Source: Verrucomicrobiota bacterium (GTDB lineage: Bacteria; Verrucomicrobiota; Verrucomicrobiia; Opitutales; Opitutaceae). Taken from it: a stretch of DNA of 37,773 bases. The position numbers and the translations under genes were made by a program. Each line of letters starts with the position of its first letter. The stretch's first letter is position 1. Shown here in pieces: positions 4,894 through 35,325 of the stretch. Below the pieces are notes generated by a model that was not told the DNA's origin, did no database searches, and was given only the letters and a program-made list of their open reading frames with translations. Location of the stretch: assembly GCA_016209255.1 (NCBI GenBank), contig JACQWL010000443.1:1-37773 (forward strand). Reading direction: 5' to 3'.

Positions 4894-7800
4894 TTGCGCG
4901 ATTTCGGGTGTTGTTTTTTGCCGGTGAGCATTTCCCCCTTCCCACCGGGTATTCGCCTCTCGCACTTCTGCGCGCTGCTGTGCCTCGGCAGCGGCCCCGC
5001 CGGCGCGTCGCCCGACGCCGCTGCTTCTGCCACGCCGCTCGGGTTCAATCGCGACATTCGCCCGATCCTGTCGGAGAACTGCTTCAAGTGTCACGGACCC
5101 GACCAAAACCAACGCAAGGCCGAACTGCGCCTTGATCAGCGTGAGGTCGCGATTGCGAAGGGTGCCATCGCCCCCGGCAAGCCCGGCGACAGCGAGGTGA
5201 TTTACCGCATTTTCGAGACCGATCCCGAAGAGAGGATGCCGCCGATCGATTCGAACCGCGAGCTCTCGGCCGCGCAAAAAGAGACCCTCAAGCGCTGGAT
5301 CGCGGAGGGCGCCGCCTACGAGCCACACTGGGCCTTCGTCCCGCCCGTGCGTCCCGCGGTGCCCGCCACCCGGAGCGTGCCCGCCCCGCGCTACCCCATC
5401 GACGCGTTTATCCTCGCCCGGCTGGAACAGGAGGGCCTGCCACCCGCGCCCGAGGCCGATCGCCGCACGCTGATCCGGCGCCTGAGCCTCGACCTCACCG
5501 GACTGCCGCCCGCGCCATCCGACGTCGCAGCCTTCGTGCGCAGCCGCGATCCGCAGGCGTACGAGCAGCTGGTCAAACAGTACCTCGCCTCGCCGCACTA
5601 CGGCGAACGCCTCGCGCTACCGTGGCTCGATCTCGTGCGCTATGCCGACACGGTTGGCTTTCACAACGATGTGCCGATCCGCGTCTGGCCCTATCGCGAT
5701 TACGTGATCGATGCCTTCAACCGCAATCTGCCCTTCGACCAGTTCACGCGCGAGCAGCTTGCCGGCGATCTGCTGCCCGATTCCACGATCACCCAGCGCA
5801 TCGCCTCCGGCTATAACCGCCTTCACCGCATCAGCGCGGAGGGCGGCATCCAGGACAAGGAGTATTTCGCGAAATACTCCGCCGACCGCGTCCGCACCAC
5901 GTCGACCGTGTGGCTGGGCGCGACGATGGCCTGCGCCGAGTGCCACGACCACAAGTTCGATCCGTTCACGATCAAGGATTTTTACCGCTTCGCCGCGCTC
6001 TTCTCCGACCTCAAGGAAAAGGGCGCCTACAACCTGAGCGGCGGCTTCACCCGCGAAAACCTCACCGAGGAAATGATCTTTGCCTCCCCCGAACAGCAGC
6101 AGCGGATGGAGTCGCTCGACGCGGAGATCGCGAAACTCCGCACGGAGGTCGACGCCGTGACGGATGCCCAGCTCGCCGCCAGCCGGGCCGAATGGGAGGC
6201 CGCGACGCTTGCCGCCGCCGCGGCGGACACGCTCGCGTGGTCGGTGCAGCGGCCGCTCGAGGCCATCTCGCCCCTGGGCACGCCGCTCGCGATCGAGGAG
6301 GACAACTCGATCGTGCCAGGTGGGAAAAACCCGCCGAACGACACCTATGTCGTCACGATTCCCGCGCCGCTCGAACGCATCACGGCGTTGCGCGTCGAGG
6401 TGATCCAGGATCCGCGTTTTCCCGGCGATGAGGTTTCGCGCGGGGGCGCGGCGTTCTTCATTTCCGAAATCGAGGTGCTCGGCTCCGCCGCAGCCGGTGC
6501 GCCGCCCCAGCCGCTGCGCATCGTGGCCAGCCAGGCGGCCAGTCGCACCGAGGCTGGTTATCCGGCCGAGGCGGTGTTCGATGGCGATCCGAGCACCGCG
6601 TTGTCGTTCGTCCGCAAGGTCGGGGGCGGCGTGGCCCTGCAGTTGGCGGAGGCCTGGCGCGGCGGACCGGAGGCGACCCTCGCCGTGCGGATCCGCCACT
6701 CGGAAAACCACCCTTATCAAAATCTCGGCCGCTTCCGCCTCTCGTTACACACGCTGCCCGAACCTGGCCCCTACGCGGATGCGGTGCCCGATAATTTGCT
6801 GAAAACCCTCCGCGTGCCCGCCGCCCAGCGAAAACCCGCGCAGGTGAAGGAAATCGCGGCCTACTATCGCACCGTCGCGCCGGCCCTCGCCGCCGCTCGC
6901 GAGCGGCTCACGGCCGCGGTCAACACCCGCGACTATCTCGCCAATGCCATTCCCACCATGCCGGTGTCGAAGAGCGTCGAACCGCGGCCCATCCGTGTCC
7001 TGCCGCGGGCCAATTGGATGGACGACAGCGGTGAAATCGTCGAACCCGGCGTGCCTGGGTTCATGCGGCAAATCGAGCCGGCGCCCGGCGCCCGCGCCTC
7101 CCGGCTCGACCTCGCGAACTGGCTCGTCGCGCCCGACAACCCGCTCACCGCGCGGACGTTCGTCAACCGGCTCTGGCGGATCTATTTCGGCGCCGGCTTG
7201 TGCCGCACGCTCGACGATCTCGGCTCGCAGGGCGAATGGCCGTCCCATCCGGAGCTGCTCGACTGGCTGGCGGTCGAGTTTCGCGAGAGCGGCTGGGACG
7301 TGAAGCACATGGTCCAGCTGATCGTCACTTCGCGCACCTACCGGCAGTCGTCGCGCCCGGCGCCCGCGCTCGACGAACGCGACCCGCTCAACCGGCTGCT
7401 GGCGCACCAGGCCCGCTTCCGGCTCGAGGCCGAGGTGGTGCGCGACAATGCGCTCGCGGTCAGCGGCCTGCTGGTCACCCGGATCGGCGGCGAGAGCGCC
7501 AGGCCGTATCAGCCGGAGGGTTACTACGGGGCGCTGAACTTTCCGAAACGCGAATATGTGCCGGACCTCGGCGACGGGCTCCACCGGCGCGGCGTGTACA
7601 CGCACTGGCAGCGGACGTTCCTGCACCCAAGCCTGATGGCCTTCGATGCGCCCGCGCGCGAGGAATGCACCGCCAACCGCGCGACTTCGAACACGCCGCT
7701 GCAGGCGCTCGTGCTGCTCAACGACCCGACCTACGTCGAGGCCGCCCGCGCCTTCGCGGAGCGAATCGTGCGCGAAGGCGGCTGGACGTTTCGCGGCAAG

Positions 7801-8040
7801 GTAACGTGGGCCTTCGCGCGCGCGCTGGCCCGGAAGCCGACCAAGGACGAGACGCGGCTGCTCGAGGGATTGTTCCGGCAGCAGCGCGAGCGCTACCGCG
7901 GGGACGAGCCGGCGGCGCGGGAGCTGATTTCCGCCGGCGCCGCGCCCGGGGCGAAAAAGATCGCGCCCGCCGACCTGGCCGCCTGGACCTCCGTGGCCCG
8001 TGCGATCCTCAACCTGCACGAAACCATCACGCGCAACTGA
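4894..8040 (+). CDS. PSD1 and planctomycete cytochrome C domain protein (DUF1549/DUF1553)
   Basis: This protein has about 1048 residues. The frame opens at a TTG (4894); the GTG at 4924 gives a more convincing signal peptide (MSISPFPPG then LSHFCALLCLG), so the true start is uncertain. The PSCyt1 domain carries CFKCH (C63, C66, H67 from the TTG), a covalent heme site. The PSCyt2/DUF1549 domain begins near YPIDAFILARLE and contains GATMACAECHDHKFD, a second CxxCH. A ~250-residue middle region with DTYVVTIPAPL and AVFDGDPSTALSF looks like a discoidin-type carbohydrate-binding insert. The PSD1/DUF1553 domain (LVAPDNPLTARTFVNRLWR, NTPLQALVLLNDPTYVE) closes it. The DUF1501 gene downstream is its usual partner. 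It is probably exported; its exact reaction is not known. Confidence 0.9.
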   Translation: MRDFGCCFLPVSISPFPPGIRLSHFCALLCLGSGPAGASPDAAASATPLGFNRDIRPILSENCFKCHGPDQNQRKAELRLDQREVAIAKGAIAPGKPGDSEVIYRIFETDPEERMPPIDSNRELSAAQKETLKRWIAEGAAYEPHWAFVPPVRPAVPATRSVPAPRYPIDAFILARLEQEGLPPAPEADRRTLIRRLSLDLTGLPPAPSDVAAFVRSRDPQAYEQLVKQYLASPHYGERLALPWLDLVRYADTVGFHNDVPIRVWPYRDYVIDAFNRNLPFDQFTREQLAGDLLPDSTITQRIASGYNRLHRISAEGGIQDKEYFAKYSADRVRTTSTVWLGATMACAECHDHKFDPFTIKDFYRFAALFSDLKEKGAYNLSGGFTRENLTEEMIFASPEQQQRMESLDAEIAKLRTEVDAVTDAQLAASRAEWEAATLAAAAADTLAWSVQRPLEAISPLGTPLAIEEDNSIVPGGKNPPNDTYVVTIPAPLERITALRVEVIQDPRFPGDEVSRGGAAFFISEIEVLGSAAAGAPPQPLRIVASQAASRTEAGYPAEAVFDGDPSTALSFVRKVGGGVALQLAEAWRGGPEATLAVRIRHSENHPYQNLGRFRLSLHTLPEPGPYADAVPDNLLKTLRVPAAQRKPAQVKEIAAYYRTVAPALAAARERLTAAVNTRDYLANAIPTMPVSKSVEPRPIRVLPRANWMDDSGEIVEPGVPGFMRQIEPAPGARASRLDLANWLVAPDNPLTARTFVNRLWRIYFGAGLCRTLDDLGSQGEWPSHPELLDWLAVEFRESGWDVKHMVQLIVTSRTYRQSSRPAPALDERDPLNRLLAHQARFRLEAEVVRDNALAVSGLLVTRIGGESARPYQPEGYYGALNFPKREYVPDLGDGLHRRGVYTHWQRTFLHPSLMAFDAPAREECTANRATSNTPLQALVLLNDPTYVEAARAFAERIVREGGWTFRGKVTWAFARALARKPTKDETRLLEGLFRQQRERYRGDEPAARELISAGAAPGAKKIAPADLAAWTSVARAILNLHETITRN

Positions 8041-8045
8041 CGCCG

Positions 8046-8066
8046 GGGCGTCGCCCGCCGACGCCC
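8046..8066. repeat. hairpin GGGCGTCG/CGACGCCC, copy 1
   Basis: GGGCGTCG (8046-8053) and CGACGCCC (8059-8066) form a perfect 8-bp stem with a five-base loop just after the PSD1 stop codon. The same stem recurs at 8211-8231 with a different loop. It could act as a transcript-stabilising or terminating hairpin, but no T-run follows. Confidence 0.6.
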
Positions 8067-8114
8067 GCGAACACCTTTCTGTTGCTTGCCCCCGCCCAAA
8101 CCGCGCAATTACCG

Positions 8115-8134
8115 GGTAACCTATTGGGTTACTC
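8115..8134 (-). repeat. GAGTAACC palindrome, copy 1
   Basis: On the minus strand this is GAGTAACC, the loop CAATA, then GGTTACC, missing the final arm bases of the other copies. Identical 21-base copies lie at 11063-11083 and 11133-11153. All three are intergenic. The low-GC sequence stands out from its GC-rich surroundings. Confidence 0.75.
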
Positions 8135-8210
8135 CACCTCTGATTTGCTCACGAATTTCGATGAATACTTAACCGGGTGATGCTGCCGCGGATACTGCAC
8201 TTCCGACGAC

Positions 8211-15145: not shown

Positions 15146-16435
15146 TCACACGCCCTCGCCGTAGAGATTGGCGAGCCGCGCCGCGAGTTTCCGGCGCGCC
15201 ACCGCGTAGGAAAAATATTTCACGCCCAGCGCGAAGTTCGCCTCCGCCCACGCCTCGCGCTGCGCCCGATCGGCGAGCACCGCCCGCGTCTGCGCCACGA
15301 CCTCGTTGGTCACGAGCTGGGTCATCTCGATCGTCTTGAACCCGAGCGGATCGATGTCGCGCGCGTAGACGGCATATTTGTTCACGACGACGGGCTTGCG
15401 GAAGTAAATCGCCTCGAGAAACGCGTTGCCGAAGCCTTCGTAGTGGCTCGGGTAGGTCACCAGGTCGGCATGCGGGTAGACGTCGGCCAGGGTGTAGATC
15501 TTCCTGCCCTCGGCGTTCATGCCCCGCTGCTCGCCGACGCGGTCGGCAATGAAGCGCACATCGATCCGCGCGTCCGCGATCCGTTCGCGCAGCATCTGGA
15601 TGTAGCCGCCACCTTCGTCGCCGGCCGGATGCGAGATGACGAGCTTCGCGCGCGAGTCTTCGAGCCGGCGGACGAGCTCGATGGCGTGTTCGATGCCCTT
15701 GCGCATGACGACGCGCGTGGGCTGGAGGATGAAAATGTCGTCGTCGCGCAGCCCGATCTCGCGGCGCAGATCGGCGTTGTAGCCGTCGAGGCCCGGCGGC
15801 GGCGTTTCGAAATCGAGCACATTGGGAATGACGGCCGAGGGCAGGCTGCACCGCCGCGCCAGTTCCTTTTGGGCCATCGAATTGATCACGACGTGCTCGA
15901 CCCGCGGCAGCGCGCCCGGAAACGCGGCCCGCAGGTAGTCGTTGATCGCGCTGACGACGAAGCGCTCGCGCTCCCACGCGAAGTCGTGGTGATGCGCGAT
16001 CGTGGGCAGACCGGTTTCCGCAATCACTTCCGTCATCGCCAGACCCAGCGGCACGTGCATCGGGATCGCATGGATGTTCTCGGGGATGAGCACCTCGATC
16101 CGGAATTTCTCGATGAACCGGTAGAGCTCGTCCTTCAGCCGCTCCTTGAGGGCCTGGATTTCGTTGGTCACCGCGCGGGGCCGCACGGTGACGCCAAACA
16201 GCTTCTCCTGCACCGCGAGCACCTCCGGGTGGTTGAAGAACGCCAGCGGCGCCTCGTGGCTGACGGCGGCGGGCGCATCGAGCAGGCCCGCCATCCAGTA
16301 ACACGAGTGCCCCATGCCGCGGAGAATGTCCGCCCACTTGCGCGCCTCGAGGGTCACGCCGTCCGTGCCCTGAAACCGCGTCGAAACGAAGCCGATCCGG
16401 CGCGGCGCGCCCATCGTCAGAATGCAGCTGTCCAT
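15146..16435 (-). CDS. GT4 glycosyltransferase, candidate mannosylglucosyl(phospho)glycerate synthase
   Basis: This 429-residue GT-B enzyme has its N-terminal Rossmann start in IGFVSTRFQGTDGVTLEARKW. The acceptor-side motif is IAHHHDFAWERERF. The donor half contains QPTRVVMRKGIEHAIELV and the GT4 signature HYEGFGNAFLEAIYFRKPVVVN, with the E(x7)E pair. An internal Met eight codons in (16414) is an alternative start. It is the last gene of a minus-strand set (GT4, HAD phosphatase, GT4) that faces a GT81-type glucosyl-3-phosphoglycerate synthase. Mannosylglucosylglycerate synthesis requires such a GT4, and this protein's N-terminus resembles that group as I recall it. The sugar and acceptor remain inferred. 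It lies 43 bases after the HAD gene, consistent with one transcript. Confidence 0.75.
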   Translation of the reverse strand: MDSCILTMGAPRRIGFVSTRFQGTDGVTLEARKWADILRGMGHSCYWMAGLLDAPAAVSHEAPLAFFNHPEVLAVQEKLFGVTVRPRAVTNEIQALKERLKDELYRFIEKFRIEVLIPENIHAIPMHVPLGLAMTEVIAETGLPTIAHHHDFAWERERFVVSAINDYLRAAFPGALPRVEHVVINSMAQKELARRCSLPSAVIPNVLDFETPPPGLDGYNADLRREIGLRDDDIFILQPTRVVMRKGIEHAIELVRRLEDSRAKLVISHPAGDEGGGYIQMLRERIADARIDVRFIADRVGEQRGMNAEGRKIYTLADVYPHADLVTYPSHYEGFGNAFLEAIYFRKPVVVNKYAVYARDIDPLGFKTIEMTQLVTNEVVAQTRAVLADRAQREAWAEANFALGVKYFSYAVARRKLAARLANLYGEGV

Positions 16436-16478
16436 GGCCCGAGAGAATCCACCGCCCGGTGCTTGGCAACACGTCCGG

Positions 16479-17195
16479 TCACTTCACTGCCAGCGCCGCC
16501 GCGAGCTGCGCCCAGTCGCCGCCGTCCCGCCCGTCGCCCGCTCCGAGCCGCCACGTCCGCCATCCCTGCGCCCGCGCGGGCGCAAGGTCGTTGTCCACGC
16601 GGTCGCCGACCATGAGCGTCTCGTGCGGTGCTACGTCCGTCGCGCGCAGCCGCGCCGTCAACAGCCGGATTACATGCGGAGAGGGTTTGCCAAAGCCGTG
16701 CGCAAACGACCAGAAGCACAGCGCCGGCTCGAACCACGCCGACGACGCGCCCGCGCCGGCCAGCGCCTCCTCCAGCTCGCGCAGCGTGTAGGGCTGCGCA
16801 TTGGACGCGATGCCGAGGAGGATGCCCCGCTCGCGCAATCCACGCAAGGCCGCCGCCGCTCCCGGCATCAGCTGCACGGTGTGCCAGAGCGCCGTCTGGC
16901 GAAACGCAAACTCCGCCTGCCCCGCCGCGTCGAGCGCCGCCACCTCGAACACCACCGCCCTCACGACCTCGGGCCAATACACTTCCGGGAACGCAATGCC
17001 CGCCGCCCGCGCCGCCGCGTGCTCGCGCGCCACGACCGCCTCGCAACCCGCGCCGAACTCCGCCAGCGTCAGCCGCGGCGCCCGGCCGAGCATCTCGCGC
17101 CACAGCGCGAACCACCGCGCCTCCGCCGCGTCGGGCGGCGGACCGACGTCGAGCACGGTGCCGTAGATGTCGCAAATGACGGCCCGAAGGTTCAT
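16479..17195 (-). CDS. HAD-superfamily hydrolase, candidate (mannosyl)glucosyl-phosphoglycerate phosphatase
   Basis: This 238-residue protein shows HAD motif I as CDIYGTVLDVG, motif II in ILLGIASNAQ, a Lys/Pro in FGKPSPHVIRLL, and motif IV in MVGDRVDNDLAPARAQGW. The nucleophile Asp is present, but the usual second Asp (DxD) is Tyr, as in DxYGT haloacid-dehalogenase-like members; some of these are phosphatases. The ATG overlaps the upstream GT4 stop in an ATGA, so the two are translationally coupled. A phosphatase is expected next to a phosphoglycerate-glycosylating enzyme, to release the free glycosylglycerate. This role is inferred from context; a dehalogenase activity is the alternative. 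Confidence 0.75.
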   Translation of the reverse strand: MNLRAVICDIYGTVLDVGPPPDAAEARWFALWREMLGRAPRLTLAEFGAGCEAVVAREHAAARAAGIAFPEVYWPEVVRAVVFEVAALDAAGQAEFAFRQTALWHTVQLMPGAAAALRGLRERGILLGIASNAQPYTLRELEEALAGAGASSAWFEPALCFWSFAHGFGKPSPHVIRLLTARLRATDVAPHETLMVGDRVDNDLAPARAQGWRTWRLGAGDGRDGGDWAQLAAALAVK

Positions 17196-18766
17196 GGCGC
17201 GCGGCTCCACAGGAGCGGATATTGGTTCTCCCAGGCGAGCTTGGCGCGGAAAAACTCGTCCGCGATCCGCTCCGGTGCGTCGTCCGCCACCGCGCCCGGC
17301 GCCGCGTGCAACAACTGCGCAAATCTCCGCGCATACGCTGCCGCCCCCAACCAGCGCTCCGCGCTGTGCGGCCATCGCGAGGCCGCCAGTGCCCCCGCCC
17401 CCGCTCGCGACCGCCAGCGGCGCAGCAGCGGATTGAGCGCGGCGCAGCGCGCCCACGAGTCCTCGGGCGCGTGCGCGAGCACCTGCAGTTGCGCCGTGAG
17501 CGTCAGGCGGCTGAACGCCACCGGCCCCCCACCTGCATCCAGCCATGGCGGACGGCCCGCGAGAGCCCGGCAGCGGCGCGGCAGCCCGGCGCGCCACGCC
17601 TGCCAGCGCCGCTCCTGCCGCGCGGTCTCGGCCCGCGCATCGAAAAGTCCGCGCTCGATCCACACCTCGTCATAAGCCTGCGGAAACCGAAACCCGAACG
17701 TCGCCAAATCCGGCGCGATATTCGGCAGCGTCCGCACGATCAGCGGACGTCCCGCCGCCGCCGCCTCAAGGTTCGGCAGGCCGAAACCCTCCTGCAACGA
17801 GGTGAGCAGCACCACCTCGCTCGCCGCCAGCAGCGCCGGCACCGCCGGCTTCACCGCCTCCGCTTCCGCCAGCACGCCCAGCCGCAGCCGCCAGCCGTGC
17901 CGCATCCCGGCCGCGCGCAGCGTGTCGGCATAGGCGCGCTCGTCGGCCGAGCTCACGCCGCCCGTCGTGACAAGCCACGCCTCCGGTCGCAGCCAGCGGG
18001 TGAGCAGCAACGCCTCCGCGAGGTTTTTCCGTCGCAACAGCCGGCACGGCACGAGCCAAACCGGCGCCCGCCCGCCGAGGGTTTCCCGCAGCCAGTCTTG
18101 CGCCTGCCGCACCGCCGCCGTTGGCGGCGCGGACGGCGCGGCCGCGAGATTCGGCAGCCAGCCCGCGCGCGCGCCGAGATGCCGGGCCAGTATGCGATGA
18201 TCGCCCCGGTTGATCGTCGCATGCCGCACCGTCGGTGCCGCCGCGAAAACTGTCCGCGCCACCGCGCCGAGGGAACCGAATCCCGCCCGCCGCATCTCCG
18301 GCCAGCGCTGCCAGCGGTTGTCGAACCACCAGTCGTGATGATGCGCCACCAGCGGCACGCCGCGCCGCGCACACGCCTGAGTGAGCGCGCGCGCCAGCGT
18401 CAGGTTGCGCCCGAGGCCGAGATTGTGCGCCCATACGACCGTGTCCGCCGGTCTCGCCCCGCCCAGCAGTCCGGCCGCAAACGCCCGCACCCGCCGCGCG
18501 ACTGCCGACGCCGGCCCGCGCGCCTCCGATCGGTAGCCCGCCGCGGGCGCGATCGCGCAGGTCACGTCGACGCCAGGCACGCTCGCCCGCAGCGCGGCGA
18601 GCCACGCCGCGTCCGGCGCTTCGCCGCCCGCGAGCACAACCGCGTCGAGACCGGGCCGCCGCGCGCCGGCCAGCGCCGGCAGCGCCAGCTCGATCACGCG
18701 CCGCACGCCGCCCGGCCGGTAGTGACTGTGAACGATGACGAGTCTCACGCGCGCAGAATTTTTCAT
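17192..18766 (-). CDS. GT4 glycosyltransferase
   Basis: This 524-residue GT-B protein begins RLVIVHSHYRPGGVRRVIE, the glycine-rich start of many GT4 enzymes. It has VAHHHDWWFDNRW in the N-terminal domain, VPCRLLRRKNLAEALLL at the start of the donor domain and SLQEGFGLPNLEAAAAGRPLIV as the GT4 nucleotide-sugar signature. A C-terminal ~100-residue extension rich in Arg and Ala (FRAKLAWENQYPLLW) is unusual. It leads the minus-strand set, overlapping the HAD gene by four bases, and is divergent from gpgS with 210 bases between. It probably adds a sugar to glycerate, phosphoglycerate or an intermediate made by the divergent GT81 enzyme; the exact step is unknown. Confidence 0.78.
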   Translation of the reverse strand: MKNSARVRLVIVHSHYRPGGVRRVIELALPALAGARRPGLDAVVLAGGEAPDAAWLAALRASVPGVDVTCAIAPAAGYRSEARGPASAVARRVRAFAAGLLGGARPADTVVWAHNLGLGRNLTLARALTQACARRGVPLVAHHHDWWFDNRWQRWPEMRRAGFGSLGAVARTVFAAAPTVRHATINRGDHRILARHLGARAGWLPNLAAAPSAPPTAAVRQAQDWLRETLGGRAPVWLVPCRLLRRKNLAEALLLTRWLRPEAWLVTTGGVSSADERAYADTLRAAGMRHGWRLRLGVLAEAEAVKPAVPALLAASEVVLLTSLQEGFGLPNLEAAAAGRPLIVRTLPNIAPDLATFGFRFPQAYDEVWIERGLFDARAETARQERRWQAWRAGLPRRCRALAGRPPWLDAGGGPVAFSRLTLTAQLQVLAHAPEDSWARCAALNPLLRRWRSRAGAGALAASRWPHSAERWLGAAAYARRFAQLLHAAPGAVADDAPERIADEFFRAKLAWENQYPLLWSRAP

Positions 18767-18976
18767 GCCCGCGATTTCGCGGCGAACTAATTTCCGCCTT
18801 TTCGCGAAAGCGGCTTGTCACGCTTCCCGCGTTCTCGCTGCATGGGCGCAGGCTCGGAGCGCCGACAAAGCCCCGACCCGAGGGTCCGGTGTGGCGGTCG
18901 CACCGGAGGTCACGCGGATGGTCGGGCCATCATTCGCACTCACAATCATCACGCGCCTGCGGGCGCACTCGCGATC

Positions 18977-20188
18977 ATGTCTGACTTTTTTCAAACCGGA
19001 GCCGTCGCCACGCTGCACCGCCTCGGCGCGCCCGATCTCCCGCGCCTCGAACGCGAGCTCGGCCAGTTCGCGCAGGAGACACCGATCGCGCTCGTCCTGC
19101 CCTGCCACATCCGCGAAGTCGGCACCAAGGCCCTCCGCGTCATCGCCCGCGAGCTGAAGCACGTCTCCTATCTCAGCCAGATCGTCATCGGCATCGACGG
19201 GGCCAATCTGCGCAGCTGGAAGAAAGCCCGGCGCTTTTTCGCCCAGTTGCCGCAAAAACCCACGCTCCTCTGGAACGACGGCCCGCGGCTGCAGCAAATG
19301 TTCAAGAAACTCGAGGCCGCCGAACTCGGCGCCGGCGCCCCCGGCAAGGGCCGCAATGTTTGGGCCTGTTTCGGCTACGTGCTCGCCAGCGACCGCGCCC
19401 GCATGGTCGCCGTGCACGATTGCGACATCCTCACCTACAATCGCGAGTTGCTCGCCCGCCTCTGCTACCCCGTCGCGCACCCGAGCCTCGGCTTCGACTT
19501 TTGCAAGGGCTACTACGCCCGCGTGACCGAGCACCTCAACGGCCGCGTCATGCGCCTGCTCGTCACGCCGCTGCTGCGCGCGTTGAAGAGCATCCTCGGC
19601 CAGCACCCCTACCTCGTCTACATGGACACGTTTCGCTACCCGCTCGCCGGCGAGTTTGCGATGGACCTCGATCTCGTCCGCCGCGTCCGCATCCCCGCCG
19701 ACTGGGCGCTCGAGGTCGGCATGCTTTCGGAGGTGATCCGCAACTGCGCGCCCCGCGCCATCTGCCAGTCGGAGCTCTGCGACAACTACGACCACAAACA
19801 CCAGGATCTCTCGGTGCGCGATCCCGAGCGCGGGTTGAACAAGATGGCGTCCGACATCGCGCGCGCCTTTTTCCAGCGCATGGCCGCCGAGGGGATCAAA
19901 CTCGACACCGGCCTCTTCGACACGCTCATGAGCGCCTACATGCGCCAGGCCGAGGACACGCTCCGCTTTTACGCCGCCGACTCCGCGCTCAACGGCCTCA
20001 AATACCCGCGCCACGACGAGGAGACCGCCGTGGCCACCTTTGTGCGCAGCATCCGGCTCGCCTCCAAGGGGCTCCAGGATGACCCGCTCGGTGCGCCGCT
20101 GATCTCGAATTGGAACCGCGTCGAGTCCGCCCTGCCCAATTTCCTCGACGAACTGCGCGAAGCCGTGCGTCTCGACAACGAGGCGTAG
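18977..20188 (+). CDS. gpgS: glucosyl-3-phosphoglycerate synthase-like GT81 glycosyltransferase
   Basis: With the ATG at 18977 the product has 403 residues, close to long bacterial GpgS proteins. Upstream in-frame codons back to 18815 give low-complexity sequence and are rejected. The GT-A fold is visible as ALVLPCHIREVGTKALRVIA, IVIGIDGAN and the metal-binding DxD in MVAVHDCDILTY. The family segment LNGRVMRLLVTPLLRAL follows, then FAMDLDLVRRVRIPADWALE and NYDHKHQDLS near the catalytic end. GpgS joins NDP-glucose to 3-phosphoglycerate, the first step to glucosylglycerate-type compatible solutes. It is divergent from two GT4 genes and a HAD phosphatase that could finish the pathway. A different phosphorylated acceptor is possible. 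Confidence 0.78.
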   Translation: MSDFFQTGAVATLHRLGAPDLPRLERELGQFAQETPIALVLPCHIREVGTKALRVIARELKHVSYLSQIVIGIDGANLRSWKKARRFFAQLPQKPTLLWNDGPRLQQMFKKLEAAELGAGAPGKGRNVWACFGYVLASDRARMVAVHDCDILTYNRELLARLCYPVAHPSLGFDFCKGYYARVTEHLNGRVMRLLVTPLLRALKSILGQHPYLVYMDTFRYPLAGEFAMDLDLVRRVRIPADWALEVGMLSEVIRNCAPRAICQSELCDNYDHKHQDLSVRDPERGLNKMASDIARAFFQRMAAEGIKLDTGLFDTLMSAYMRQAEDTLRFYAADSALNGLKYPRHDEETAVATFVRSIRLASKGLQDDPLGAPLISNWNRVESALPNFLDELREAVRLDNEA

Positions 20189-20416: not shown

Positions 20417-20437
20417 TGAAAGACCGACCGTCTTTCA
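20417..20437 (-). terminator. hairpin overlapping the ppk2 stop codon
   Basis: TGAAAGAC (20417-20424) and GTCTTTCA (20430-20437) form a perfect 8-bp stem with a five-base loop that includes the ppk2 TGA. It suits termination between convergent genes, but there is no T-tract on either side, so it may instead protect the 3' end. Confidence 0.4.
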
Positions 20438-21313
20438 ATACACCTCCGGCACGAACGTCTGGTCCGTGATTGGCGGTCGAACGTAGCTGCTCTTGTTCTC
20501 GCGCGACGGGAGTTTCATCGGCTTCGGGGTCAGATCCTTGTAGGGAATCGCGTTCAGCAAATGCCGGATGCAGTTGAGCCGCGCGCGCTTCTTGCTGTCG
20601 GCGTTCACCACCAACCAGGGCGCCTGCTTGATGTCCGTGTAGGCAAACATCTCGTCCTTGGCCCGGGAGTAATCCACCCACCGCCGGCGCGACTCCAGAT
20701 CCATCGGGCTGAGCTTCCAGCGTTTGGTCGGATCATGAATGCGGCTCTGGAACCGGCGCTCCTGCTCCTCGTCGCTGACGGAGAACCAATACTTGAGGAG
20801 CACGATGCCGGAACGGATGAGCATGCGTTCGAATTCCGGGCAGGAGTGAAAAAACTCCGCCACGTCGTGATCCGCGCAAAATCCCATCACGCGCTCGACC
20901 CCGGCCCGGTTATACCAACTCCGGTCGAACAGCACCATTTCCCCGGCCGCCGGCAGATACGGGACGTAACGCTGGAAATACCACTGCGTCTTTTCGCGCT
21001 CGGTCGGCGCGGCCAGCGCCGCCACCCGGCAGATGCGCGGGCTCAGGTGCTGCGTGATGCACTTGATCACGCCGCCCTTGCCGGCGGCATCGCGACCTTC
21101 GAAAATCACCACCACCTTCAATCCTTGCGCCTTGATCCACTCCTGCAGCTTCACGAGTTCGATCTGCAGGCGGGCCAGTTCCTTCTGGAAAAACTTCTTT
21201 TTCTGCTTTTTCGACAGTTTTTCCGGCTGTTTTTCCGACGGCTTTCCCAGTTGCTTGTCCGACGGCTCCTCCGACTGTGCGCGGGCCGGCTTTTTCGCAT
21301 TTTTCTTGGCCAT
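20435..21313 (-). CDS. ppk2: polyphosphate kinase 2
   Basis: A strong GGAGGA ribosome site lies before the ATG at 21313, giving 292 residues; the frame is open upstream but that start is better. Residues 1-50 form a Lys/Glu/Ser-rich charged tail (KPSEKQPEKLSKKQKKK). The catalytic core carries the Walker A FEGRDAAGKGGVIK, the lid PTEREKTQWYFQRYV, the Walker B-type LFDRSWYNRAGVERVMGF and the terminal motif KRARLNCIRHLLNAIPY. It is a single-domain PPK2, moving phosphate between polyphosphate and ADP or GDP in the cytoplasm. It stands alone, convergent with gpgS. The 450-base upstream region holds two palindromes that could be regulatory. Confidence 0.93.
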   Translation of the reverse strand: MAKKNAKKPARAQSEEPSDKQLGKPSEKQPEKLSKKQKKKFFQKELARLQIELVKLQEWIKAQGLKVVVIFEGRDAAGKGGVIKCITQHLSPRICRVAALAAPTEREKTQWYFQRYVPYLPAAGEMVLFDRSWYNRAGVERVMGFCADHDVAEFFHSCPEFERMLIRSGIVLLKYWFSVSDEEQERRFQSRIHDPTKRWKLSPMDLESRRRWVDYSRAKDEMFAYTDIKQAPWLVVNADSKKRARLNCIRHLLNAIPYKDLTPKPMKLPSRENKSSYVRPPITDQTFVPEVY

Positions 21314-21580
21314 GTTCTCCTCCGGGTAGGGCGGTTGAAACTCGGGCGGCTCGCGGTCGGAGGCGGTCTGCCTCACAGGGATACCGGCGATCCCGGTCCT
21401 GTGCCTATCTGGCCGGGCCAGACGTGTCAATCGCCGGCCGGGCGCAAAACCGATGCCTCTCACTCCAGGGGTGGCCTCTAATGGATGACTTCTCGCCAAG
21501 CGAAACCCGGTCCGGTCGGCCGCGTCTGGCCCCAAGGGCTGTTCCGTCCGACCCATCCGCAGTTTTGCCGCCTCGCGCAA

Positions 21581-33686: not shown

Positions 33687-33995
33687 ATGAATTATCCCGT
33701 AAACACATCCCCACAGCTCCGTGCCGTCCTGCGTGGGTTGCGGCAGTCCCGGGCGCTCAGCCAGGCGCAAGTCGGGCAGTTGCTGGGCGTGAATCAGAAG
33801 CGGGCGGCGCGAATCGAGAGCGCGCCTGGGGTCACCGCCTTCGATCAGATCGCCCGTCTCGTCGCTGCGCTGGGCGGCCGGCTTGTTGTCGAGATGCCGG
33901 ACACGCCGCCACCGGCCACCCCGGCTGCGACCAAAAAGGGTGCGGCCCGCAAAGCCGCCGCCTTGGCCGCCAAGGCGGACCAGGGTGGCTGGTAG
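33687..33995 (+). CDS. hipB: HipB-like XRE-family antitoxin
   Basis: The product has 102 residues from the ATG at 33687. A helix-turn-helix is clear in LRAVLRGLRQSRALSQAQVGQLLGVNQKRAARIES, followed by TAFDQIARLVAALGGRLVVEM, the short beta-strand end common to HipB proteins. The last ~30 residues are rich in Ala, Lys and Pro, a likely disordered tail. It binds DNA and neutralises the downstream HipA-type kinase; the operator-like array sits 11 bases before its start. The stop is 16 bases before hipA, an operon arrangement. No ribosome site is visible. Confidence 0.9.
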   Translation: MNYPVNTSPQLRAVLRGLRQSRALSQAQVGQLLGVNQKRAARIESAPGVTAFDQIARLVAALGGRLVVEMPDTPPPATPAATKKGAARKAAALAAKADQGGW

Positions 33996-34011
33996 CAGGC
34001 AAGCTCCGGCC

Positions 34012-35325
34012 ATGCCGCAATCGACCCTCTCGATTTGGATGAACGGGCTGCGGGTCGGCACCTGGACGCAGGTGCGCGGCACGCACCGGCTGCAATACGA
34101 GCCCGGTTGGGTGCAGTCACCGGCCGGTCGCGCGCTCTCCCTGTCGCTTCCCTTCACTCCCGGCAACGCCGCCCACCGCGGTGACGTGGTCGCAAACTAC
34201 TTCGACAACCTCCTGCCCGACAGTGACACCATCCGCAGCCGCCTTCGGTCGCGGTTTTCCACGTCCTCAACCGGGGCGTTCGATTTGCTGACCGCGATTG
34301 GGCGGGACTGCGTCGGTGCGGTGCAGTTGTTGCCAGAGGACGAAACCCCCGCCGGTTTTGATCGCATCGAGGCCGCGCCGCTGACCGACGAAGGGGTTGA
34401 ACGGCAGATTGCCGCCTCCCTTTCCGGGGCGCGGGTGCTGGGGCGGGAGGAAGCCGGCGATTTCCGCATCTCCATTGCCGGTGCCCAGGAGAAGACCGCG
34501 TTGCTGTTTCATCGCGGAAAATGGTGTCGTCCACTGGGGGCAACGCCGACGACGCATATTCTAAAACTGCCGCTCGGTTTGATCGGTCATCTTCAGGTCG
34601 ACCTGCAGAACTCGGTCGAAAACGAGTGGCTCTGCCTGCGCCTGATGCGGGCGTTTGGCCTGCCCACGGCCTCAGGCGAAATGGTTGAGTTCGGCGCGCG
34701 AAGGGTCCTCGCGGTGGAACGTTTCGACCGCGCGTCGCAGCCGGCCGGGTGGATCGCCAGGTTGCCGCAGGAAGATTTTTGCCAGGCGCTGGGACTCCCG
34801 GGCTCGAAGAAATACGAATCCGATGGCGGGCCCGGGATGCGCGAGATCCTGCGCGTGCTCGATACCAGCGTTCGAGCGACCGAAGACAAACGGGCGTTTG
34901 TGAAAGCCCAGATCGTCTTCTGGCTGCTCGCCGCGACCGACGGGCATGCGAAGAACTTCTCGATCTTCCATGAACGCGGCGGCACCTGCCGGCTCACGCC
35001 TTTCTACGACGTCTTGTCGGCTTGGCCGATCATCGGACGCGGCCCGAACCACCTCGACTGGCACAAGGCCAGGCTCGCGATGGCCGTGCGCAGCAAAAAC
35101 GCCCACTGGAAACTGGGCGAGATCAAAGCCCGGCACTGGGACGCCGTTGCGCGTGCGGCAGGATTGGGCAGCGCCGGCCCACTACTCCAGGAGATCGCCA
35201 CCCAAATGCCGCGCGCCATCGAGAGCGTGAACCGCCAGATTCCGCCAAAGTTTCCGGCTGCGGTGCACGATAAGATATTCACGGGGTTACAGCGAACCGC
35301 CGCGCAACTTTCTGGCGGTTTGTAG
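34012..35325 (+). CDS. hipA: HipA-type serine/threonine kinase toxin
   Basis: This 437-residue protein matches the length of E. coli HipA. Its N-terminal domain has LSIWMNGLRVGTW and LSLSLPFTPGN...VVANYFDNLLPD. The kinase core shows FRISIAGAQEKTALL, with Ser154 at the place of the autophosphorylated Ser150 of E. coli, then HILKLPLG, ENEWLCLRLMRAFG and VERFDR. The catalytic Asp310 lies in TDGHAKNFS and the metal-binding Asp333 in TPFYDVLSAWP. All key residues are present, so it should be active against its aminoacyl-tRNA synthetase-type target. It follows hipB by 16 bases. Its TAG at 35323 is followed in the same frame by a Fic C-terminus. Confidence 0.93.
   Translation: MPQSTLSIWMNGLRVGTWTQVRGTHRLQYEPGWVQSPAGRALSLSLPFTPGNAAHRGDVVANYFDNLLPDSDTIRSRLRSRFSTSSTGAFDLLTAIGRDCVGAVQLLPEDETPAGFDRIEAAPLTDEGVERQIAASLSGARVLGREEAGDFRISIAGAQEKTALLFHRGKWCRPLGATPTTHILKLPLGLIGHLQVDLQNSVENEWLCLRLMRAFGLPTASGEMVEFGARRVLAVERFDRASQPAGWIARLPQEDFCQALGLPGSKKYESDGGPGMREILRVLDTSVRATEDKRAFVKAQIVFWLLAATDGHAKNFSIFHERGGTCRLTPFYDVLSAWPIIGRGPNHLDWHKARLAMAVRSKNAHWKLGEIKARHWDAVARAAGLGSAGPLLQEIATQMPRAIESVNRQIPPKFPAAVHDKIFTGLQRTAAQLSGGL

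Follow-up and report, generated by a model that had tools for sequence, protein, structure and literature searches.

The present analysis concerns four genes on a 37,773-nucleotide stretch of DNA (contig JACQWL010000443.1, assembly GCA_016209255.1) of a member of the Opitutaceae (Verrucomicrobiota), the whole stretch being called the window hereafter. Between positions 15,146 and 20,188 lie genes for a GpgS-like enzyme, a hydrolase of the HAD type and two glycosyltransferases of family GT4, termed GT4a and GT4b. Their grouping in two divergent units had been put forward in an initial annotation of the DNA and was borne out by gene calls and family matches. The set is read here as a candidate pathway for glycerate glycosides of the mannosylglucosylglycerate (MGG) type, in which GT4b would act as an extra transferase. 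Its features, with lengths in amino acids (aa), are:

15146..16435, minus strand: GT4a, a 429-aa GT4 glycosyltransferase, relative of the MggS/MggA type (match to NF041101, tree)
16479..17195, minus strand: HAD hydrolase, 238 aa, candidate phosphatase, MggB-like (PF00702, alignment, structure model)
17192..18766, minus strand: GT4b, a 524-aa GT4 of an uncharacterised family with a helical C-terminal part (Pfam GT4 domains, structure model)
18767..18976, no strand: divergent intergenic region of 210 bp, separating GT4b from GpgS
18977..20188, plus strand: GpgS-like glucosyl-3-phosphoglycerate synthase of the long, 403-aa type (NF040724)

All four reading frames are intact in the window. The HAD gene starts with the ATG at 17195, within an ATGA overlap with the stop codon of GT4b, and is separated from the following GT4a by 43 bases; GT4b, HAD and GT4a on the minus strand look like one predicted operon. 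For GpgS the start at 18977 was preferred, as judged from homologues, over that of the open reading frame opening at 18815. In 13 pairwise gene comparisons internal stops were absent and nonsynonymous divergence (dN) was well under synonymous divergence (dS), the dN/dS ratios, which are rough with dS near or above 1, amounting to 0.06-0.13 in GpgS, 0.14-0.17 in GT4a, 0.28-0.33 in HAD and 0.29-0.36 in GT4b.

The GpgS-like protein matched NF040724, the model of GpgS of the methanogen type, over residues 5-401 of 403 with 309 bits (E 5e-92). Relatives of the set also carry a short type of GpgS, which in one sister family exceeded the cut-off of the model NF010496 (380 vs 262 bits). Unusual architectures were seen in both types: one frame of 988 aa joins a long-type GpgS to a GH13 domain that is sucrose-phosphorylase-like and bears a TETN motif (L105:6776-9742, genome G046, same order), and two short-type proteins had about 300 extra N-terminal residues, which by eye resemble universal-stress-protein domains (L145:5644-7626, L151:7400-9304).

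GT4a was recognised by NF041101, the model of mannosylglucosylglycerate synthase (MggS), over residues 14-412 of 429. Among 14 control genomes, matches to the model came from Thermotoga maritima and from two archaea, and one of these exceeded the cut-off; none of the other GT4a- or MggS-like relatives scanned reached it. In a tree of 78 GT4 sequences, calculated by a quick method with support from the Shimodaira-Hasegawa-like approximate likelihood ratio test (SH-aLRT) and no bootstrap, GT4a and the MggS-like rows formed one side of a branch with a support of 100; these 17 rows are unlabelled sequences, not characterised enzymes, and the ten of them that were scanned scored 320-392 bits on NF041101. 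Of the comparison of the GT4s with MggA and MggS suggested in the initial annotation, the tree covered unlabelled MggS relatives, with which GT4a grouped; GT4b was set off as a separate group (SH-aLRT 99). Both groups stood apart from six other GT4s, all unlabelled and four of them on very long branches, and a grouping of either with lipopolysaccharide enzymes was not seen against these mostly long-branched outgroups.

Two occurrences of GT4a-type or MggS-like genes deserve mention on their own. The Chloroflexota clusters L138, L145 and L146 each hold two GT4a-type genes, on different tree branches, together with further GT4-like frames and GpgS or GH13_18 nearby, and longer glycerate oligosaccharides are possibly made there too. 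MggS-like genes (L123, L126) were also present in the Lachnospiraceae, in Lachnoanaerobaculum saburreum and in an oral taxon, where such chemistry is unexpected.

GT4b matched general GT4 models only, in addition to a weak match to NF041101 (23 bits). Its C-terminal extension, pointed out in the initial annotation, is real, and it proved to be a trait of the family, most homologues having 460-562 aa. The structure model reached a mean predicted local distance difference test (pLDDT) value of 94.3, with the extension folded at high confidence into helices at about residues 377-510. Its structural neighbours were GT-B/GT4 enzymes (HepE, Z 21.6; GlgM, 20.0; BshA and WaaG, 19.7), aligned over 340-357 residues with root-mean-square deviations of 3.5-4.0 and ending near residue 490, and they leave the substrate unspecified. 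A profile was built from 66 of 76 usable relatives; because residues including H144, R245, K247, E326 and E334 are invariant in the 67 aligned sequences, window included, GT4b looks catalytically intact.

The HAD protein belongs to the broad HAD hydrolases (PF00702, 4e-16) and was modelled with a pLDDT of 96.5. S131 N132, K170, G197 and D203 were invariant in 43 aligned sequences, window included; S131 N132, K170 and the acidic Mg site presumably represent motifs II-IV, which are hence kept.

Conservation was followed within the order in 57 genomes, 37 from the family of the window and one each from 20 other families. Close homologues of all four genes were found in six of the 37 family genomes, namely G000, to which the window belongs, G002, G014, G018, G023 and G034. 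In the latter five, identity to the window amounted to 80-87% for GpgS, 79-81% for GT4a, 56-68% for GT4b and 50-61% for HAD, the set being divided between two contigs in G014. Outside the family, GT4a (50-53%) and a distant GT4b (25-35% over aligned stretches) co-occurred in the same eight of 20 families, weak matches in G053 being excluded. Six of these eight families have a short-type GpgS at most 451 bases away from GT4b, both genes lying on the same strand, and therefore the pairing of GT4b with GpgS persists even where one GpgS type is exchanged for the other. GT4a, GT4b and GpgS occur once more in the genome of the window, as a broken copy (G000:C465, L092, positions 5160-8155) with frame breaks and stops, which may stem from decay, from an assembly error or from another strain.

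Beyond the order, a scan of named genomes was evaluated for the best 80 of 503 loci. GT4a homologues in these belonged to Verrucomicrobiota, Planctomycetota, Spirochaetota, Chloroflexota and deltaproteobacterial bins, in many cases with a GH13_18-like protein after them, and there was no Thermotogota record among the 80. GT4b was detected with at least 300 bits in 26 of the 50 searched genomes behind these loci and with 168 bits in one more, the Chloroflexota among the 50 displaying weaker GT4 matches only. In the planctomycete class of genome G105, represented by 248 genomes and searched with thresholds of at least 188 bits for GT4b and E <= 1e-40 for GT4a, GT4b was present in 40, GT4a in 38 and both in 37 genomes. 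The 188-bit line removed weak GT4 matches (117 of the 248 genomes had matches at E <= 0.001); the survey scored the best six or seven candidates per genome, so that misses are possible, and its counts ignore kinship.

Gene order was compared in 85 distinct GT4b loci, window excluded, 81 of which were covered for 900 bases or more on their 3' side. The neighbour counts use profiles from few sequences and ignore kinship as well; loci L086-L189 were partly found via GT4a, by which adjacency to GT4a is inflated there, and those from the 50-genome and 248-genome searches were selected by GT4b alone. HAD was located within 600 bases of GT4b or fused to it in 63 of the 81 loci, and five loci (L267-L271) presented GT4b and HAD fused in one open frame. 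HAD and then GT4a followed downstream of GT4b in 35 of the 85 loci, with five more showing the fusion, and GpgS was the immediate upstream neighbour of GT4b, in the same orientation, in 24. Eight of 20 planctomycete stretches had the order GT4b-HAD-GT4a-GH13_18-GpgS, four of the eight with GT4b and HAD fused. Where at least 5 kb were available on both sides (49 loci), HAD was found in 38, GT4a within 6 kb in 33, GpgS within 6 kb in 30 and GH13_18 within 8 kb in 27; HAD, GpgS and GT4a were all present in 20 of these loci and none of them in three. Taken by its sequences, GT4b is a real, separate and co-conserved family without known role.

The frequent companion of the set is a phosphorylase of GH13_18, a subfamily in which the motif (T/S)ETN marks glucosylglycerate phosphorylase, as described in the accessible part of one report (PMC7178133). 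The motif was present in 65 of 66 distinct GH13 proteins (at least 500 bits) from the loci of relatives, and because the GH13_18 companions bear it, they tie the gene set, at the level of sequence motifs, to glucosylglycerate chemistry. In G002, G014 and G034 the phosphorylase gene adjoins GpgS; in G000, G018 and G023 there was no GH13_18 match at E <= 1e-20, the assembly G000 of the window being 85% complete.

A known producer of MGG is Rhodopirellula baltica, whose MGG enzymes are said to be GpgS, MggA and MggB, with MggS absent. Petrotoga mobilis reportedly has two routes to MGG, GpgS/MggA and Ggs/MggS, and the sequence of Petrotoga MggA reportedly bears some resemblance to that of MggS. 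We know of no role for a second GT4 in the MGG pathway of R. baltica. Genome G485, which we take to be R. baltica SH1, has a homologue for each of the four proteins of the window, with identities of 41% for GpgS (399 columns), 50% for GT4a, 28% for HAD and 25% for GT4b. Whereas the window genes are contiguous and without a phosphorylase, in G485 HAD, GT4a and the phosphorylase are contiguous and GpgS and GT4b are found elsewhere; an open reading frame next to this GT4b resembles methionyl-tRNA synthetase by eye. One GpgS match, of the long type, was obtained in G485 with a query that missed the short type in G106, so that G485 may have a short-type copy as well. GT4a of G485 matches the MggS model at 248 bits, its GT4b is recognised by none of the NCBIfam models, and because MggA is said to resemble MggS, GT4a is the better candidate for MggA and GT4b the additional enzyme. 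The HAD contiguous with GT4a in G485 is likewise the better candidate for MggB, and we infer that GT4a is MggA-like and HAD MggB-like. According to the accessible part of one report, R. baltica accumulates MGG, to a greater extent under nitrogen limitation and salt, and apart from R. baltica the solute had, as of 2013, been found only in two species of Petrotoga (PMC3694870); the accessible part of a further report states that the MGG biochemistry of R. baltica has been characterised (PMC13342039).

Judged from family membership and gene neighbourhood, the set very probably represents, as a class, a pathway for glycerate glycosides of the MGG type. The initial annotation had proposed a glucosylglycerate or MGG pathway, which is supported in part, by the GpgS-type start, the MGG-type GT4a, the HAD, the conservation of the set in Verrucomicrobiota and Planctomycetota and the often adjacent phosphorylase; motif I of the HAD, which lacks its second Asp, does not support it. 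For the exact assignment, an MGG-type pathway with GT4b as extra transferase, we estimate a probability of roughly 0.5, with substrates, order of steps and product deduced from the genes. GpgS would transfer the glucose of a sugar nucleotide onto 3-phosphoglycerate, yielding glucosyl-3-phosphoglycerate, to which GT4a as an enzyme of the MggA/MggS type would add the next sugar, probably mannose. GT4b, encoded beside HAD, would act on the still phosphorylated intermediate and add one more sugar, and HAD would then remove the phosphate to give either MGG or, as is more likely, a glycoside of glycerate with one sugar more. The product would be a charged compatible solute, of a kind that protects against salt stress. 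A role of GT4b as extra transferase and one in a step before dephosphorylation can be compatible if it follows GT4a on the phosphorylated intermediate. The most specific form of the reading with an extra transferase, in which GT4b is a new glycosyltransferase that attaches a third sugar to the MGG precursor while this is still phosphorylated, and the adjoining or fused HAD frees an undescribed triglycosyl-glycerate solute in Verrucomicrobiota, Planctomycetota, Spirochaetota and deltaproteobacterial lineages, is tentative and has somewhat less than even chances. A longer, undescribed oligosaccharide of glycerate had already been suggested for the second GT4 in the initial annotation, and such a product is possible since GT4b is a separate, co-conserved family; alternatively, GT4b may catalyse the phosphorylated step, with MGG as the only product.

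Several observations weigh against the pathway with GT4b as extra transferase. Both synthases remain below curated equivalog cut-offs, GpgS with 309 of 700 bits for NF040724 and 65 of 262 for NF010496 and GT4a with 221 of 640 for NF041101. Motif I of the window HAD reads DIYGT, with Tyr replacing the second Asp of DxD, and 64 of 65 readable HADs (69 distinct proteins) share DxY(G/A/K/Q)T. Most HAD phosphatases carry this second Asp, and haloacid dehalogenases have Tyr at that place. Foldseek neighbours of the HAD were of the phosphatase and, adversely, also of the haloacid dehalogenase kind, substrate not indicated; in view of the Tyr in motif I despite a kept acidic motif IV, the phosphatase function is therefore inferred from gene context. 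Furthermore, 18 of the 81 GT4b loci had no adjoining HAD, GT4b of G485 stands alone and distant from the other genes of the set, and the row GpgS-GT4b-HAD, present in 11 of the 85 loci, fits a GT4b that acts directly after GpgS and is not extra. Finally, reports on R. baltica name, in their accessible part, MGG and no longer glycoside (PMC3694870).

These rows lead to the strongest rival, in which GT4b itself performs the MggA-type step, transferring mannose onto glucosyl-3-phosphoglycerate, HAD releases MGG, and GT4a works as an MggS-type enzyme on free glucosylglycerate, so that two routes would end in one product, as is said of Petrotoga mobilis. The five GT4b-HAD fusions and the 63 of 81 loci with adjoining or fused HAD accord with it, as do the faster pace shared by GT4b and HAD (dN/dS about 0.3, compared with 0.06-0.17 in GpgS and GT4a, rough values) and the position of GT4a, like that of several MggS-like relatives, beside a phosphorylase handling free glucosylglycerate. 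Yet MggA reportedly resembles MggS, which GT4a does strongly and GT4b hardly, and the presumed R. baltica genome has both GT4s although the species is said to lack MggS. On balance this assignment is rather unlikely, and the pathway with GT4b as extra transferase is preferred.

Known systems resemble this pathway in part. In sucrose-phosphate synthase/phosphatase and similar couples of glycosyltransferase and HAD, a GT4 is likewise fused or coupled to a HAD, which implies a phosphorylated product that is dephosphorylated; GT4b and its HAD differ in travelling with GpgS and, as far as the present profiles show, in being distinct families. With the MGG pathways of Petrotoga mobilis and the MggS of Thermotoga maritima the window set has in common the GpgS-type start and GT4a, which is related to the MggS model over its full length, albeit below the cut-off. 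The glucosylglycerate pathway of GpgS and GpgP (accessible parts of PMC7178133 and PMC10873239) shares GpgS, a candidate phosphatase and, in many relatives, GH13_18 with TETN, whereas the window set has two additional GT4s and its genome, at the completeness given above, no GH13_18 match. A literature search thin on subscription journals, and working with partly accessible sources, found no description of the GT4b-HAD pair or of this set in Verrucomicrobiota.

The other window genes scanned encode a polyphosphate kinase 2 (PPK2; 20435-21352, minus strand), whose gene is convergent with GpgS, a neutral-ceramidase-like protein, an amidohydrolase, a purple-acid-phosphatase-like protein and DUF1501/PSD1 proteins; no further sugar-pathway genes were recognised among the scanned neighbours. 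A gene for a HipA-like kinase with HipA_C and Couple_hipA domains is located at 33883-35325 on the plus strand.

This neighbourhood bears on two weaker rivals. Glycosylation of the cell envelope or of exopolysaccharide, with the GpgS-like enzyme taking another acceptor, could be argued from the huge size of the GT4 family, from HepE and WaaG among the structural neighbours of GT4b and from the scores below the equivalog cut-offs; it is improbable given the co-conservation of the set with two GpgS types and a glucosylglycerate-type phosphorylase, the grouping of GT4a with MggS relatives and scanned window neighbours among which no polysaccharide export genes were recognised. Least probable of all is the priming of a longer intracellular polymer, an idea also raised in the initial annotation, for which mycobacterial glucosylglycerate and diglucosylglycerate as first intermediates of methylglucose lipopolysaccharide (accessible part of PMC4555173) offer a precedent, and against which it stands that no branching, methyl- or acyltransferase genes were recognised among the scanned window neighbours, the rest of the genome not having been searched for them.

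Taken together, the genes suggest that chemistry of the MGG type spans several phyla. In the sampled planctomycete class, 37 of the 38 genomes with GT4a also keep GT4b, mostly tied to the candidate phosphatase, and this retention of GT4b alongside GT4a suggests that, even in R. baltica, an enzyme step is missing from the known pathway or a product has gone unseen.

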